This document shows positions 36,356-44,135 of a stretch of DNA of 64,000 nt, piece after piece (position 1 is the stretch's first letter; every line of letters starts with the position of its first letter). The translations under genes and the position numbers were made by a program. The notes under the pieces are model-generated. The model searched no databases. It worked only from the letters and a program-made list of their open reading frames with translations, and was not told the origin of the DNA. The stretch comes from Hufsiella ginkgonis (GTDB lineage Bacteria > Bacteroidota > Bacteroidia > Sphingobacteriales > Sphingobacteriaceae), in assembly GCF_009834915.1 (NCBI RefSeq), contig NZ_WVHS01000001.1:1178001-1242000 (forward strand), written 5' to 3'.

Positions 36356-37945
36356 TTGAAAAATATATCCAGGAGAGATTTTATACAAAAAAGCACCGCC
36401 CTGGCAGGCGGAAGTTACTCGTTAATGCTGGCGTTAGGATTATTACGCCCTGTTGAAGCCCACGGATTTGAGTTAGAGGGCAGCGCCGGCGGGCAACATG
36501 TGATTATTTTAGGCGCGGGGCTTTGCGGAATGACCGCAGCTTATGAGCTGGCAAAACTGGGTTATAAGTGCACCATACTCGAAGCGCGTGATCGCACCGG
36601 CGGAAGATGCTGGAGCCCAAAAAAAGGATCCGCTTCCGCCGAAATCGGTAAAGCTCTTCAAATTGGGCAATTCGACGAAGGGATGTATTTTAATGCCGGG
36701 CCTTCGCGGATCCCGCACAACCACGCGCTAACCATGCATTATTGCCGGGAACTGGGCGTACCTATCCAGGTTTATAACAATGTGAACGAGGGGGCTTATT
36801 ACTTCAGTGAAGGAAAGGGCCCGCTATCCAATAAGAAGGTCCGTGTGCGCGAGGTGCATAATGACATGCGCGGGTATACCACCGAGCTGCTGGCAAAAGC
36901 CATGGACCAGGGCAAGCTCGACCAGGCCATGACCAGGGAAGACGCCCAAAAAGTGATCGAATACCTACGGGCGGAGGGCGGTTTGGATATCGACAAGCTT
37001 TACAAGGCCTCTGCCCGGCGCGGTTACACCGAAGAGCCCGGCGCCGGTAATAAAACCGGCAAGATCGCCGACCCGCACCGGCTTACCGACCTGGTGAGCT
37101 CCGGCTTGCTCGACCCCGACTTTTACAACGTGGCCGAATATACCTACGAGCTCCAGATGACCATGTTCCAGGCCGTTGGCGGGATGGAGCAGATTGCCAG
37201 GGCACTCGAAAAAAAGGTGGTTGCCCAGTTAAAAACGGGCAGCGAAGTAACCCATATTCAAAATACCGATACCGGTGTTAAAATAACGTACAAGGATAAA
37301 CTCGGCACACACGAGCTTGCCGGCGATCTTTGTATCTGTACCATCCCGCTTCCTGTATTAAGTAATGTGAACCATAATTTTTCTTCGGATGTAAGCCGGG
37401 CGATCGACTTTACGCCTTACATCTCAACGGGGAAAATCGGGCTACAATTTAAACGCCGTTTCTGGGAGGAAGATGAGCATATTTTCGGCGGGATCACCCA
37501 TACCAACAACGAGCTCACCCAGATCTTCTACCCATCCAATGATTACCTCGGTAAAAAAGGCGTCCTGATCGGGTATTACAACTTTAATGAAAAAGCGAAG
37601 CTGGTAGGAGATTTGTCTATCCCAGATCGCGAGAAGCTTGCGCTTGCCAAGGGAACGCTCATTCATCCGCAATATGCGGATGAATTCGAAAAATCGTTCT
37701 CGGTAAGCTGGCATAAAGTACCTTACAGCATGGGCGGCTGGGCTTTGTATACGAGCGAAACACGTAATTCGCATTACCAGGCGCTGATTAAACCCGACAA
37801 GCAGGTTTATTTCGCCGGAGAGCATACATCTTATTTAAATGCCTGGATGGCCGGCGCATTTGAATCGGCCAGAAGCGTGGTTTCGGCCATTCACGCACGG
37901 GTGAGCGGGCAGCGTTTAACATACCCGGTAACAGGAAAAGGTTAA
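36356..37945 (+). CDS. Tat-exported flavin monoamine oxidase family protein
   Basis: 529-aa FAD enzyme of the amine/L-amino-acid oxidase group. The only start that keeps the Tat signal is TTG at 36356 (an in-frame stop lies at 36335-36337), giving MKNISRRDFIQKSTALAGG with the twin arginines at 6-7. The FAD-binding motif follows: VIILGAGLCGMTAAYEL (GxGxxG at 53-58), EARDRTGGRCW. The C-terminal FAD motif YFAGEHTSYLNAWMAGAFESA is intact. The protein is therefore a periplasmic oxidase that would release hydrogen peroxide and an imine or keto acid; its substrate is unknown. It heads a three-gene cluster with 25- and 28-nt gaps. Confidence 0.9.
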   Translation: MKNISRRDFIQKSTALAGGSYSLMLALGLLRPVEAHGFELEGSAGGQHVIILGAGLCGMTAAYELAKLGYKCTILEARDRTGGRCWSPKKGSASAEIGKALQIGQFDEGMYFNAGPSRIPHNHALTMHYCRELGVPIQVYNNVNEGAYYFSEGKGPLSNKKVRVREVHNDMRGYTTELLAKAMDQGKLDQAMTREDAQKVIEYLRAEGGLDIDKLYKASARRGYTEEPGAGNKTGKIADPHRLTDLVSSGLLDPDFYNVAEYTYELQMTMFQAVGGMEQIARALEKKVVAQLKTGSEVTHIQNTDTGVKITYKDKLGTHELAGDLCICTIPLPVLSNVNHNFSSDVSRAIDFTPYISTGKIGLQFKRRFWEEDEHIFGGITHTNNELTQIFYPSNDYLGKKGVLIGYYNFNEKAKLVGDLSIPDREKLALAKGTLIHPQYADEFEKSFSVSWHKVPYSMGGWALYTSETRNSHYQALIKPDKQVYFAGEHTSYLNAWMAGAFESARSVVSAIHARVSGQRLTYPVTGKG

Positions 37946-37970
37946 TTATTAAAATACTAAAATAAACAAC

Positions 37971-39155
37971 ATGGCAAATCAAATGGATCGCAGAAGCTGG
38001 ATCAAGTCCAGCGCATTCCTGGCTGGAAGCGTGGCTTTCTTTTCAGGATCATTCAACACCGCAGCAGCAAAAACCCGTTCGCTGCTCATGCCGAAAGGTT
38101 TTACTGCGCTTTCTGACTTTGCACAGGAAGAACAGGAATTATTGAACGCTCCCGCAGAAATCACTGCACGTCTCAGCTCTAACGAGAACCCGTTTGGCCC
38201 GTCGCCCAAAGCCAAAAAAGCGATCATGGAAGGAATTGACGGCAGCTTCCGCTACGGATTCGGCGGCACCCGCCAGCTAACCGCCAGGATCAGCGAATTT
38301 GAGGGCCTTGGTCCTGGAATGGTTAGCCTGAGCCCGGGTTCATCGCCGTTCCTGAAAGCAGGCGCGGCCCATTTCTCGAAAGGCGGCGGATCCATCATCA
38401 CCGGCGATCCAAGTTACGATGACCTCACCCGCACCGCGGCAGGAATGGGAGCCAAAATCGTAAAGGTGCCGCTTACCGCCGATTACAAGCTCGACCTCGA
38501 CGCGATGGAAAAAGCCATCGACGGCAGCACCAAACTGGTGTATATCGTAAATCCAAATAATCCCACGGCAACCACCGTCGACACGGCGAAGCTGAAATCA
38601 TTCATCGAGCGGGTTTCTCCTAAAGTAACCGTGTTTGTGGACGAAGCCTACATAGATTATGTAAAAGACCCGAAGTCTGCTACCACCATCGATTGCGTAA
38701 AAAAAGGCATGAACGTGGTAGTGATCCGCACCTTCTCTAAACTATATGGTTTTGCCGGTCTCCGTATGGGTTATATGGTGGCCCAGCCGGCGATGATCCA
38801 GGCGCTGGGCGAATATACCGACGGCGCATTTTCCATTTCGTCGCTTTCCGTTAACGCCGCCGTCGCCAGTTACCAAGACCGCGATTTTATGACCGATGCG
38901 CTGGCGAAAACAGCGGCATCCAAGCAATTTTTGTACGATACGCTCAAAAAAGAAGGGTACGAGTATATTCCGTCAGACGCAAACTTCGTGTTGTTCCCGG
39001 TTAAAATGGAGGCGAAGAAGTTTACCGAAGAGATGTCAAAACGCGGCGTTCAGCTGCGAAACTGGAAATTTAGCGGCAAAGAATGGTGCCGCGTAAGTAT
39101 CGGCACCATGGACGAAATGAAAGCCTTCGCCGCTGCATTCACACAAATCGCTTAA
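37971..39155 (+). CDS. Tat-exported HisC-like PLP aminotransferase
   Basis: 394-aa class I/II aminotransferase closest to histidinol-phosphate aminotransferases. A Tat signal is seen: MDRRSWIKSSAFLAGSVAF (Arg7-Arg8). The PLP fold is complete: RLSSNENPFGPSP, NPNNPT (194-199), DEAY (224-227), the Schiff-base Lys257 in RTFSKLYGFAGLRMGY and a final substrate-binding Arg in CRVSIGT. It follows the amine oxidase by 25 nt. A periplasmic PLP enzyme is unusual because PLP is made in the cytoplasm; the Tat route would export it folded with cofactor. It is unlikely to act in histidine synthesis. Confidence 0.9.
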   Translation: MANQMDRRSWIKSSAFLAGSVAFFSGSFNTAAAKTRSLLMPKGFTALSDFAQEEQELLNAPAEITARLSSNENPFGPSPKAKKAIMEGIDGSFRYGFGGTRQLTARISEFEGLGPGMVSLSPGSSPFLKAGAAHFSKGGGSIITGDPSYDDLTRTAAGMGAKIVKVPLTADYKLDLDAMEKAIDGSTKLVYIVNPNNPTATTVDTAKLKSFIERVSPKVTVFVDEAYIDYVKDPKSATTIDCVKKGMNVVVIRTFSKLYGFAGLRMGYMVAQPAMIQALGEYTDGAFSISSLSVNAAVASYQDRDFMTDALAKTAASKQFLYDTLKKEGYEYIPSDANFVLFPVKMEAKKFTEEMSKRGVQLRNWKFSGKEWCRVSIGTMDEMKAFAAAFTQIA

Positions 39156-39183
39156 CGCGAACTAATAACGAACCTCAAATAAT

Positions 39184-40179
39184 ATGTTAAAAGTAACGTC
39201 AACACTACTGCTTCTTTTTATCACAACCTTTTCATTGGCGCAGGAAACACCCAACCCGCGCCCGATGACCATGGCCGAGTATCAAAAAGCGAAAACCTTT
39301 TCGATCGCTAACCTGGACAATGACACGTATGTGAAGTTCGAAAACGCCTATATTCTCGACCGGTATGAAGCACGGAAGCCCTATTTTATCACCGGCGACG
39401 ACGGCCAGAAAAAACGCATCGACCTGTACAAGCTGATCGCCAGGGAGGGTATGCAGGAGCTCGGCCTCTTCATTTTTTATACGAACGAGCAGGGCAAGGT
39501 ATTTAAGGCATGTATGCCCAATTTCACCGCAGATGCAAAGGTTTGGGAGCAGTACTTTAACGACATCGACAACATTAATAAGGTTGAGAAAAACTATGTG
39601 CTGAAACTTTCTTACATCTTGTCGAAAGAATTGGGATTCCAGCTCTATAAAGCCCTTAACCAGGGTAAAGACCTGTCAAAGGAGTCGGCCACGTATGGCA
39701 ACGATGTTTGTTTCCCCGGCGACGAGGAAGTTACCATGGCCGATGGCAGCACCAAACAACTGCACGATGTAAGGCCCGGAGATCTGGTGATCACGGTAGA
39801 CGCCCGGACCCGGCAGAGCACCGCCGTTAAGGTAAGAGCGCTTTCTGTGCACGATGCAAAGAACTACGCAATCACAAGCCTTACGCTGGTTTCGGCAAAG
39901 GAAACGTTGCTGAACGGTTATAACCAGGTAGCGCTTTCTGCCAAGGTATTGAGCGCTACGCCCAATCACCCGATGAGAACCAGTACCGGCGACCGTAAGA
40001 TCGGCGAGATCGCCGAAGGCGAAAACGTACTTTGCCTGGACGAAAAAACAGGCAAGTATGAGCCATTTGTGGTTCTTGGAAAGAAAGAGTTTGCCGGGGG
40101 AACGCAGAAGGTATACAATATCGTAGCCGAAGGCGGCGATACCTTCCTGATGAACGGCGTAATGGTGAAGCAAAAATAA
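39184..40179 (+). CDS. Secreted protein with C-terminal Hint (hedgehog/intein) domain
   Basis: 331 aa. Signal peptide MLKVTSTLLLLFITTFSLAQ; an unrecognised domain at about 21-170; then a Hint domain beginning at Cys176 (NDVCFPGDEEVTMADGS, GDLVITVD), with the block-B motif TPNH (259-262) and the closing strand DTFLMNGVMV. The protein stops 5 residues later without the HN/Cys extein junction of inteins, so at most an N-terminal thioester or cleavage at Cys176 is expected, as in hedgehog-like proteins. It is the third gene of the Tat oxidase-aminotransferase cluster. A terminator-like hairpin follows. Confidence 0.85.
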   Translation: MLKVTSTLLLLFITTFSLAQETPNPRPMTMAEYQKAKTFSIANLDNDTYVKFENAYILDRYEARKPYFITGDDGQKKRIDLYKLIAREGMQELGLFIFYTNEQGKVFKACMPNFTADAKVWEQYFNDIDNINKVEKNYVLKLSYILSKELGFQLYKALNQGKDLSKESATYGNDVCFPGDEEVTMADGSTKQLHDVRPGDLVITVDARTRQSTAVKVRALSVHDAKNYAITSLTLVSAKETLLNGYNQVALSAKVLSATPNHPMRTSTGDRKIGEIAEGENVLCLDEKTGKYEPFVVLGKKEFAGGTQKVYNIVAEGGDTFLMNGVMVKQK

Positions 40180-41718: not shown

Positions 41719-43074
41719 ATGGAAAATTCACGCCGCAAATTCATCAAACAATCCGCCATCGCCGGGGCCGGGCTACTGGTATCAAAGACCGGTTGGACCG
41801 CCCAGAGTTATAAAAGGATCATCGGGGCCAACGAACGCGTACGCGTAGGCGTTGTCGGGTATTCCGACAGGCATAAGAGCTCGCACATGCCTTGTTTCAT
41901 GAACCATTATAAAGAATTGAACTTCGACCTGGTAGCTGTTTCGGATATCTGGAGCCTGCGCCGCGAGGAAGGCGCCGCTGCCTGGAAAGAAAAAATGGGT
42001 CACGACGTGGTTGCCTGCCGAAATAACGAAGAGATGTACGACAAAAAGCTGGTTGATGCTGTATTTGTAAGCACGGCCGATTTCCAGCACGCCACCCACG
42101 CCGCCGAAGCCGTAAAGGCCGGTTGTGACGTGTATTGCGAAAAGCCTTTCGCCGAAACGATGGAAGACAACCGCAATGCCCTGAAAGTGATCAAAGGCTC
42201 CGACCGCATCGTACAGATCGGTTCGCAACGCCGCAGCGGCCAGAACTACCACATCGCCAACGACTATATCCGCTCCGGGAAATTTGGCGACATTACCATG
42301 GTAGAGCTTACCTGGAACGTAAACCAACCAGGCCGCTGGCGCCGGCCAACCGCCGTACCGCTGCTAAAAGAAAAAGATACCGACTGGAAGAGATACCTGC
42401 TCAATCGCCCGTTTGAGGCCTTCGATCCGCGCAAATATTTAGAGTTCCGTCTTTTCTGGCCCTATTCTTCCGGTCTCCCGGGACAGTGGATGAGCCACCA
42501 GATCGATACCGTTCACTGGTTCACCGGCCTGAGCCATCCGCGCAGCGTAGTCGCCAACGGCGGAATTTATATGTGGAAAGACGGCAGAAGGAACTGGGAT
42601 ACCATTTCGGCGGTGTTTGATTATGGCCCGCTGAACGATCCTTCGAAAGGCTTCCAGGTAACATTCTCTTCGCGGATGCACAATGGCGACGAAAACCCGG
42701 CAGAGATCTACTATTCGAATGGCGGCGAATTGAACCTGAACACCAATAAAGTTTCTCCTGCCGGCGGGTTAACCGACAAAACGGCCGCGGTAATGGGAAT
42801 GAAGGGCTTCCTGCTGCCTGAGTCGAGCCTTTCACCCATGGAAAAAGTGATCGCTTCGGCTAATACCGGTGGTGATAAGCTTACTTCGGCACACGTAAGG
42901 AACTGGATGGAATGTATCCGCAGCCGCAAACAGCCAAACGGCCCGGTTGAGGCAGGTTATAACCACTCTATTGCTACCATTATGACCAACGCAGCGGTGC
43001 ATACCGGGCAGAAAGTTACATTCGACGAAAAAACACAGGAAGTAATGGCGGGCGGCAAACCGTTCAAATTTTAG
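41719..43074 (+). CDS. Tat-exported Gfo/Idh/MocA family oxidoreductase
   Basis: 451-aa NAD(P)-dependent oxidoreductase of the Gfo/Idh/MocA group. The Tat signal is NSRRKFIKQSAIAGAGLLV (Arg5-Arg6). The Rossmann part has RVGVVGYSDR, then VFVSTADFQHATHAAEAVKAG and the family's CEKPFAETMEDN (EKP motif). The C-terminal domain contains GQWMSHQIDTVHWF. Such Tat-exported members are abundant in Bacteroidota and probably act on sugars. It is 2 nt from the PmoA-like gene, so the two form an operon. Confidence 0.92.
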   Translation: MENSRRKFIKQSAIAGAGLLVSKTGWTAQSYKRIIGANERVRVGVVGYSDRHKSSHMPCFMNHYKELNFDLVAVSDIWSLRREEGAAAWKEKMGHDVVACRNNEEMYDKKLVDAVFVSTADFQHATHAAEAVKAGCDVYCEKPFAETMEDNRNALKVIKGSDRIVQIGSQRRSGQNYHIANDYIRSGKFGDITMVELTWNVNQPGRWRRPTAVPLLKEKDTDWKRYLLNRPFEAFDPRKYLEFRLFWPYSSGLPGQWMSHQIDTVHWFTGLSHPRSVVANGGIYMWKDGRRNWDTISAVFDYGPLNDPSKGFQVTFSSRMHNGDENPAEIYYSNGGELNLNTNKVSPAGGLTDKTAAVMGMKGFLLPESSLSPMEKVIASANTGGDKLTSAHVRNWMECIRSRKQPNGPVEAGYNHSIATIMTNAAVHTGQKVTFDEKTQEVMAGGKPFKF

Positions 43075-43076
43075 AT

Positions 43077-44135
43077 ATGATTGGTGTATTACCGGGTAAA
43101 AAGTGCATCGCTTTATATGTGATGGCTATAATGTGCGGCACAACAGCTTTGGCGCAAAAGAACGATGACGTGCGCGTAGTAAAAGACGGCACCAAAAATA
43201 AGATCGACGTATGGATCGGGAAAAAACTGTTCACCAGTTTTCTCTATCCCGACACGCTCGAGAAACCGGTACTCTACCCGGTATTTACCGCCTCGGGGAA
43301 AGACGTAACACGCGGATTCCCGATGAATCCTAAAGCGGGCGACCCTACGGATCATCCGCACCATATCGGGATCTGGTTTAACTGGGAAAACCTGAACGGG
43401 CTGGATTTCTGGAATAATTCTTATGCCATCCCTGCCGATAAAAAGAAGCAGTACGGCTGGGTGAAAACCGACAGGATCCTGCAATCTGCCGGCGGCAAAA
43501 CCGGCGTACTCTCTTATCACGCCAATTGGACCAACCAGCAAAACGAAGTATTAGTAGAAGAAACCACCCGGCTGGAGTTCAGTCAGCAAGGCAGTAAACG
43601 GATCATTGACCGTGTAACGGATCTAAAAGCGGTAGTGGAGGCGACCTTTACCGATGCAAAGGACGGGATGTATGCAATCCGCCTCGCGCACGAGCTGCAG
43701 ATCCCCTCATTAAAGGATGAAAAATTTACCGACAGTAAAGGGATCGTCACCGTTGTAAAAGGCGGAACAGATAAAATAGCGAACGGCAACTACGTAACCA
43801 GCGAGGGCGCTACCGGCGATGCTGCCTGGAGCACCCGCGCAAGCTGGTGTAAGGTTTACGGTAAAATGGACGGGGATTCGGTTAGCGTGGTCATCATCGA
43901 TCATCCTAAAAACATCAATTACCCCACTTTCTGGCATGCCCGTGGTTATGGGCTTTTTGCCGCTAATCCACTGGGGGAAAAGATCTTCACCAATGGCAAA
44001 AGCGAAAAGAACCTGAAATTGAAACCCGGCGAGACGGTAAGCTTCCGTTTCAGGCTGGTGGTAGACGAGGGGGCTAAGGCTACTTCATCTACAGATATTA
44101 AAAAGCTGGCGGCAGATTTTTCCTCGAAAAAGTAA
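43077..44135 (+). CDS. PmoA-like (DUF6807) exported protein
   Basis: 352 aa. The signal peptide runs to about residue 26 (MAIMCGTTALAQ). The mature part matches the Bacteroidota/Planctomycetota PmoA-like family (DUF6807): LYPVFTASGKDVTRGFPM, DHPHHIGIWFNWENLNG, HPKNINYPTFWHARGYGLF, and a C-terminal FRFRLVVDEG. Despite the name there is no link to methane monooxygenase; the fold is beta-rich and the function unknown. Members co-occur with Gfo/Idh/MocA oxidoreductases in carbohydrate loci, as here. An intrinsic terminator follows. Confidence 0.87.
   Translation: MIGVLPGKKCIALYVMAIMCGTTALAQKNDDVRVVKDGTKNKIDVWIGKKLFTSFLYPDTLEKPVLYPVFTASGKDVTRGFPMNPKAGDPTDHPHHIGIWFNWENLNGLDFWNNSYAIPADKKKQYGWVKTDRILQSAGGKTGVLSYHANWTNQQNEVLVEETTRLEFSQQGSKRIIDRVTDLKAVVEATFTDAKDGMYAIRLAHELQIPSLKDEKFTDSKGIVTVVKGGTDKIANGNYVTSEGATGDAAWSTRASWCKVYGKMDGDSVSVVIIDHPKNINYPTFWHARGYGLFAANPLGEKIFTNGKSEKNLKLKPGETVSFRFRLVVDEGAKATSSTDIKKLAADFSSKK

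Follow-up and report, generated by a model that had tools for sequence, protein, structure and literature searches.

A Predicted Tat-Exported Oxidase and Aminotransferase are Co-Inherited with a Secreted Hint Protein in Bacteroidota

Three consecutive genes of Hufsiella ginkgonis, encoding a predicted flavin oxidase (AAO), a pyridoxal-5'-phosphate (PLP) aminotransferase (AT) and a secreted protein with a C-terminal Hint domain (HINT), belong to a set that is co-inherited in Bacteroidota beyond chance. They occupy positions 36356-40179 of the analysed window, a stretch of 64,000 nucleotides (nt) from contig NZ_WVHS01000001.1 (1,178,001 to 1,242,000, forward strand), as three open reading frames (ORFs) on the plus strand with gaps of 25 and 28 nt; all feature coordinates below refer to the plus strand of this window unless stated otherwise. 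The initial annotation had described two adjacent twin-arginine enzymes followed by a signal-peptide Hint protein, and this layout was confirmed by the ORFs, by Pfam and by homologue alignment. Their shared presence or absence suggests a hitherto undescribed extracytoplasmic modification pathway, and the balance of the evidence tips slightly towards a co-inherited extracytoplasmic module whose three proteins act in one pathway. No description of the AAO-AT-HINT combination was found among the literature matches listed, in a search that covered few subscription journals. A bacterial Hint protein that is not a toxin, inherited strictly with two predicted exported enzymes of alpha-amino groups, gains from this set a function that can be tested, and periplasmic PLP chemistry gains a new setting beyond pyoverdine.

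In the proposed pathway, HINT would be secreted via the general secretory (Sec) pathway and fold, and its Hint domain would convert the bond before C176 to a thioester. Hydrolysis of this thioester, or its transfer to an amine, would free the conserved N-terminal domain (N-domain). The twin-arginine translocation (Tat) system would export AT and AAO past the inner membrane in the folded state, with PLP and flavin adenine dinucleotide (FAD) bound, and both would convert an L-alpha-amino acid to the alpha-keto acid, AT by transamination and AAO by a reaction with O2 that yields NH3 and H2O2. HINT processing and deamination may be steps of one maturation path, either for the N-domain or for a molecule bound by it. 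The thioester step is proposed because the catalytic residues of the Hint domain are invariant, the deamination step because of the export signals and conserved active sites of AT and AAO, and the link between the three proteins because of their co-inheritance. In outline, the data agree with the earlier suggestion of an autoprocessing-type protein beside an extracytoplasmic system that modifies amines or amino acids; the activities that this suggestion implies are so far predictions.

The Three Genes are Inherited as a Set

Among 399 genomes of the family, HINT was matched in 57 at E<=0.001. Strong matches make up 54 of these; the other three are weak or broken, two being decayed (genomes G199 and G412) and one 25% identical over part (G326). 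At E<=1e-60, AAO was matched in 54 genomes and AT in 60, the latter comprising 54 matches at >=55% identity and six at 39-42%. The strong sets of the three genes are the identical 54 genomes, and in 54/54 the genes lie on one contig and one strand in the order AAO-AT-HINT. A stop codon is found inside AAO of G370 and inside HINT of G026. The decayed sets of two family genomes (loci L052 and L152) consist of AT and HINT remnants in G412 and of HINT and AAO remnants in G199. Within genera, the presence of the trio is patchy among the family genomes. In a phylum sample of 326 genomes, AAO was matched in six at E<=1e-60. Every genome with AAO at this threshold also contains HINT (54/54 in the family, 6/6 in the phylum sample).

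A collection of named Bacteroidota yielded 116 HINT relatives, of which 80 were kept and 36 left out. The 80 loci span Mucilaginibacter, Pedobacter, Chitinophaga, Niastella, Chryseolinea, Hymenobacter, Adhaeribacter, Pontibacter, Rufibacter and others, and 77 of them hold AAO, AT and HINT together in this order; in the remaining three (L102, L123 and L126) the set is cut off by the end of the contig. Among the 77 loci, L088 has only the end of AAO on its contig, and a few genes elsewhere are in pieces. The initial annotation had proposed the three-gene order across Bacteroidota as a check, and the order is borne out by 77/80 named loci and 54/54 family genomes, which also excludes an adjacency confined to this strain. 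Clustering of 780 neighbouring ORFs of the 80 loci gave no family in more than 15 loci, and there is therefore no fourth core gene. The commonest neighbour family, a short-chain-dehydrogenase-like ORF (by eye), occurs in 14 Mucilaginibacter loci and one Pedobacter locus.

The association extends to a divergent branch. Of the 11 phylum genomes matched by the N-domain profile of HINT (see below), eight carry HINT of the main type and three (G661, G780 and G603) carry HINT at 27-31% identity. In G661 and G780 (L145 and L146) the order is AT-AAO-HINT, indicating that the association outlives gene order. In the locus of the third genome (L147:8506-17420), an AT-HINT pair has SusC/SusD-like genes (by eye) and another Tat-type relative of AT nearby.

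Pairwise distances of the three proteins are correlated (Pearson 0.86-0.90, Spearman 0.72-0.75, 69 rows), and the HINT tree (79 rows) mostly tracks host families. Horizontal spread of the trio was set aside, as the tree mostly follows host families and vertical inheritance with loss is simpler; on this simpler account, the trio is an old module of mostly vertical descent that was often lost. A row labelled Williamsia, placed among Chitinophagaceae in the HINT tree, is probably a mislabelled bin.

Several observations weigh against a single shared pathway. Six family genomes hold AT relatives at 39-42% identity outside the set. In the large whole-genome runs, scoring was limited to the top 3 to 5 first-look candidates of each genome, and a distant AAO could therefore be missed. 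As the HINT tree mostly follows host families, the 54 genomes are not independent trials. In G603 (L147), HINT follows AT and a genome-wide search at E<=1e-20 gave no AAO, which is therefore dispensable there. AT scores below the curated cut-offs of the PtaA, HisC and PRK09105 models, by which its substrate is not assignable. Finally, cleavage, activity, export and contact between the proteins are all predicted, and so are the individual reactions, their meeting on one substrate and the shared maturation path.

Some loci depart from the simple layout. In G395 (L039:6918-8430), AT and HINT are separated by a pair of IS3-like transposase ORFs (129 and 205 amino acids, by eye), which splits the set and leaves both genes open. 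A second AT is present in L149:5944-8383, arranged as AAO-AT-AT-HINT, and in L092:6764-10474, where it follows HINT.

Two Predicted Tat Substrates with Alpha-Amino-Acid Sites

AAO (36356..37945) encodes 529 amino acids from a TTG start, which was accepted because homologues begin at the same place with the twin-arginine stretch. The protein matches Pfam Amino_oxidase with 187.4 bits. Among solved structures, its sequence is closest to that of the L-amino acid oxidase 2jae (E 2.4e-99, residues 40-517), presumably from Rhodococcus opacus. R118 in the motif SRIP (36707..36709) aligns with the Arg of TRIP in 2jae, and Y408, the second Tyr of YYNF (37577..37579), with the second Tyr of AYYS; both are invariant across 14 aligned rows. 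We take these two residues to bind the alpha-carboxylate; a search for literature on the 2jae active site, aimed at their roles, found nothing. By full-length similarity and the aligned anchors, AAO is a predicted flavin L-amino-acid oxidase. It resembles 2jae along the whole chain and in the kept Arg and Tyr, but differs from it by its own Tat signal and its constant partners AT and HINT.

The oxidase family raises the question of H2O2 as the product that matters. L-amino-acid oxidases are H2O2 producers, some secreted members are antimicrobial, and Hint cysteine chemistry can be redox sensitive. A system that generates H2O2 for antibacterial or signalling purposes, in which HINT would serve as a sensor or effector under redox control, is nevertheless highly improbable: AT makes no H2O2, G603 lacks AAO, and HINT has no domain past the Hint domain, with 0-4 residues after K331. 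In PADLOC, moreover, only AAO is matched (PDLC01086, a C-3',4' desaturase model, E 1.1e-36), probably due to the shared FAD fold, and AT and HINT have no match at E<=0.01. Among PHROGs, AT matches phrog_5879 (function not annotated, E 2.4e-28), while AAO and HINT give weak matches. The PADLOC and PHROGs matches were not taken as a sign of defence or phage origin.

AT (37971..39155) encodes 394 amino acids and matches the class I/II family Aminotran_1_2 (PF00155) with 175.6 bits against a cut-off of 19.7. It lies near the PRK09105, HisC and PtaA models, with 248.5 bits for HisC (TIGR01141; curated cut-off 276.55) and 212.8 bits over residues 63-392 for PtaA (NF051461; curated cut-off 500). Its key residues align with those of known enzymes and are invariant in 16 rows. 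They include K257 (38739..38741) of RTFSKLYGFAGLR, which, from knowledge of the family, we take to be the PLP Schiff-base lysine. The alpha-amino-acid sites of both AAO and AT are intact as far as can be judged from their aligned sequences. The six genomes with more distant AT relatives (39-42% identity) are G036, G027, G109, G015, G074 and G317, and they lack HINT and AAO of this type.

The closest parallel for AT is found in pyoverdine maturation, with the periplasmic PLP enzymes PtaA and PvdN. AT shares with them a Tat signal and the PLP-enzyme class, and it matches the PtaA model NF051461. It differs by its score under the cut-off of that model and by its partners, AAO and HINT in place of the pyoverdine genes. 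According to PMC6206403, PtaA is a Tat-exported periplasmic transaminase that turns the side-chain-linked Glu of pyoverdine into a keto acid.

The export signals of the two enzymes are conserved. After filtering, the 80 named loci gave 73 AAO, 77 AT and 78 HINT rows (HINT of L106 and L122 was filtered out), to which the window was added. Of the AAO rows, 73 of 74 have a twin arginine within the first 25 residues, as do 76 of 78 AT rows. The exceptions (L081, L104 and L126) start within the gene because their reading frames are interrupted. In AAO of the window, the twin-arginine core SRRD spans residues 5-8 (36368..36379). The H. ginkgonis genome encodes one TatC above the Pfam cut-off. By their N-terminal twin arginines, AAO and AT are predicted Tat substrates.

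Both enzymes resemble enzymes of free amino acids, which would suit a simple catabolic role. AT and AAO could form a transdeamination couple outside the cytoplasm, in which AT widens the substrate range and AAO regenerates the keto acid, with HINT as a binding or scaffold protein trimmed by Hint hydrolysis. Hydrolysis would be the simplest outcome of Hint activity, because the Hint domain terminates the protein. Such a couple, however, leaves unexplained that AAO occurs only with HINT in the samples and that the C-terminus of HINT carries an invariant Lys preceded by Gln, Asp or Glu; AT and HINT are also kept without AAO in G603. Catabolism of free amino acids is thus possible but doubtful as the function of the set.

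The Hint Domain Retains the Residues for a Probable Thioester

HINT (39184..40179) encodes 331 amino acids. Its Hint domain was delimited to residues 176-331 (39709..40176) by a structure model, structure alignment and conservation, and contains the putative nucleophile C176, which is the first residue of the domain, H223 and the T259-P-N-H262 motif. The protein matches Pfam Hint with 33.9 bits against a cut-off of 29.7. In the model of HINT (mean predicted local distance difference test score, pLDDT, 75.5), the Hint domain superimposes on the bacterial intein-like (BIL) structure 2lwy with Z 20.0 and a root-mean-square deviation (rmsd) of 1.5 over 134 aligned residues, and on Hedgehog with Z 19.9 (6tyy) and 19.5 (1at0); the three matches range over Z 19.5-20.0 and rmsd 1.5-2.0, and many inteins also match.

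Conservation was counted in 83 rows, namely the window, L145-L149 and 77 of the 78 filtered loci. L117 was excluded for its in-frame stop, and the HINT relatives of A1, L150 and L151 lie outside this count. In 83/83 rows, 13 of 156 positions of the Hint domain are invariant: C176, F177, G188, G199, V217, H223, T259, H262, P263, V310, Y311, G318 and K331. In Hedgehog, the Cys forms the thioester, and the Thr and His of TXXH are required, as stated in PMC9163320. Since the catalytic residues are invariant in all rows, an N-S acyl shift by the Hint domain at C176 is likely.

The general base is less clearly placed. D303 (D46) of Hedgehog aligns with S221 of HINT by MAFFT, with the invariant H223 two residues beyond, while hhalign puts gaps there. 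The PMC9163320 review also states that Hedgehog with a His in the D303 place remains active and accepts a wider range of substrates, and H223 is for this reason a candidate general base. A firm equivalence of H223 and D303 was dropped, as the two programs disagree on that stretch.

Most Hint domains known from bacteria belong to inteins or toxins. HINT shares with the Hog domain of Hedgehog the fold, the Cys at Hint residue 1, the TXXH motif, a secreted N-terminal domain upstream and a match to Pfam PF01079 above the cut-off. It lacks the sterol-recognition region and an equivalent of C400, and ends 0-4 residues past the invariant Lys. A similar comparison applies to the pretoxin Hint (PT-HINT) of polymorphic toxins: 12 of 19 HINT members match PF07591 at E<=1, but unlike in these toxins no domain follows the Hint domain, with at most four residues past K331.

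An Intein-Like C-Terminus with an Invariant Lysine

To the initial annotation, the present analysis adds the co-inheritance in Bacteroidota, the invariant Hint catalytic set and an intein-like C-terminus with an invariant Lys. The last two residues of HINT, Q330 and K331 (40171..40176), were placed by alignment at the intein terminal-Asn place (G:7) and the +1 place. In the profile alignment, residue 329 lies over residue 138 (His) of the 139-residue chain of the Mtu RecA mini-intein. In structural rows with a numbered terminal Asn, residue 331 directly follows the Asn in 6y75/6tmm (one protein), 6riy and 9hth and lies four residues beyond it in 6zgq, the structural register being read from alignment end points only. 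On account of the mini-intein alignment and the end points of 6y75/6tmm, 6riy and 9hth, residue 330 most likely occupies the terminal-Asn place, and the +1 nucleophile place most likely falls to residue 331.

Residue 330 is Q in 80, D in two and E in one of the 83 rows. Residue 331 is K in 83/83, including the divergent branch at 27-31% identity; this Lys is the last residue in 74 rows and is followed by 1-4 more in nine. At residue 329, the place of the penultimate His, M (48), L (24), K (6) and R (5) were found and no His, and residue 319, the place of the block F His, is S (52), T (19), D (8), N (3) or A (1), again without His. The intein register of the Hint ends, the Gln/Asp/Glu place and the invariant Lys are new findings here.

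HINT is like inteins and BIL domains in the 2lwy fold, the Cys at position 1, the Thr and His of block B and the Gln, Asp or Glu at the terminal-Asn place. It is unlike them in lacking both the penultimate and the block F His, in having Lys instead of Cys, Ser or Thr at +1, in a C-extein of 1-5 residues and in its single dedicated host protein. Compared with class 1 inteins, HINT thus has an accepted terminal residue, provided that the register holds, and has neither the penultimate His nor a Cys, Ser or Thr at +1. We know of no intein with Lys at +1. Glu, Gln and Asp are stated substitutes for the terminal Asn, and about 5% of functional inteins carry a penultimate residue other than His, as given in PMC4031507.

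This C-terminus would allow HINT to act as an intein-like protein whose C-extein is a single residue. K331 would take over the N-domain from the thioester, by way of its side chain or its alpha-amine, and Q330 would cyclise and release the product; a lysine linked through its side chain, its alpha-amino and alpha-carboxyl groups being free, would then be made a protein-bound alpha-keto acid by AT and AAO. The invariance and mostly final position of K331, the restriction of residue 330 to known Asn substitutes and the intein register all favour this possibility, as do the action of PtaA on a Glu that is linked by its side chain and has its alpha groups free (PMC6206403) and the aligned R118 and Y408 kept in AAO. 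Against it stand the offset of 6zgq in a register read from end points, the two missing His residues, the residues past K331 in nine rows and the need for AAO to gain access to a protein-bound substrate, in addition to the Lys at +1, which is not known from inteins. Taken together, such a route is unlikely. Its full form is quite unlikely: a Hint transferase with a cyclising Gln, Asp or Glu and a Lys that is the +1 nucleophile and mostly the whole C-extein, whose N-domain-linked lysine is deaminated by AT and AAO to a new extracytoplasmic protein-derived carbonyl. If true, it would possibly add a new kind of acyl-transfer product as well as this carbonyl.

The N-Domain of HINT

For the module as a whole, the N-domain would be either the substrate of maturation or the carrier of the molecule that is matured. 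A Sec-type signal peptide was assigned by eye and by alignment to residues 1-20 of HINT (39184..39243). It directly precedes the N-domain (residues 21-175, 39244..39708), which comprises about 155 residues and is modelled with a mean pLDDT of 85.1. The N-domain gave no Pfam match above threshold, and no reliable match in fold searches (best Foldseek E 0.14, none at E<=0.001; best VIA-align Z 5.0), an absence that does not show a new fold. Its profile matched 11 of 395 phylum genomes, with one match each, and 11/11 matches are HINT proteins; in the phylum sample, the N-domain is therefore found only fused to Hint.

Genomic Neighbourhood

In the window, the trio is preceded by dnaX and a minus-strand ORF without Pfam match and followed by rmuC on the minus strand, and these neighbours look unrelated to it. 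Next past rmuC, at 41719-44135, lie a Gfo/Idh/MocA-type oxidoreductase, which starts with a twin-arginine-like SRRKF, and a DUF6807 protein.

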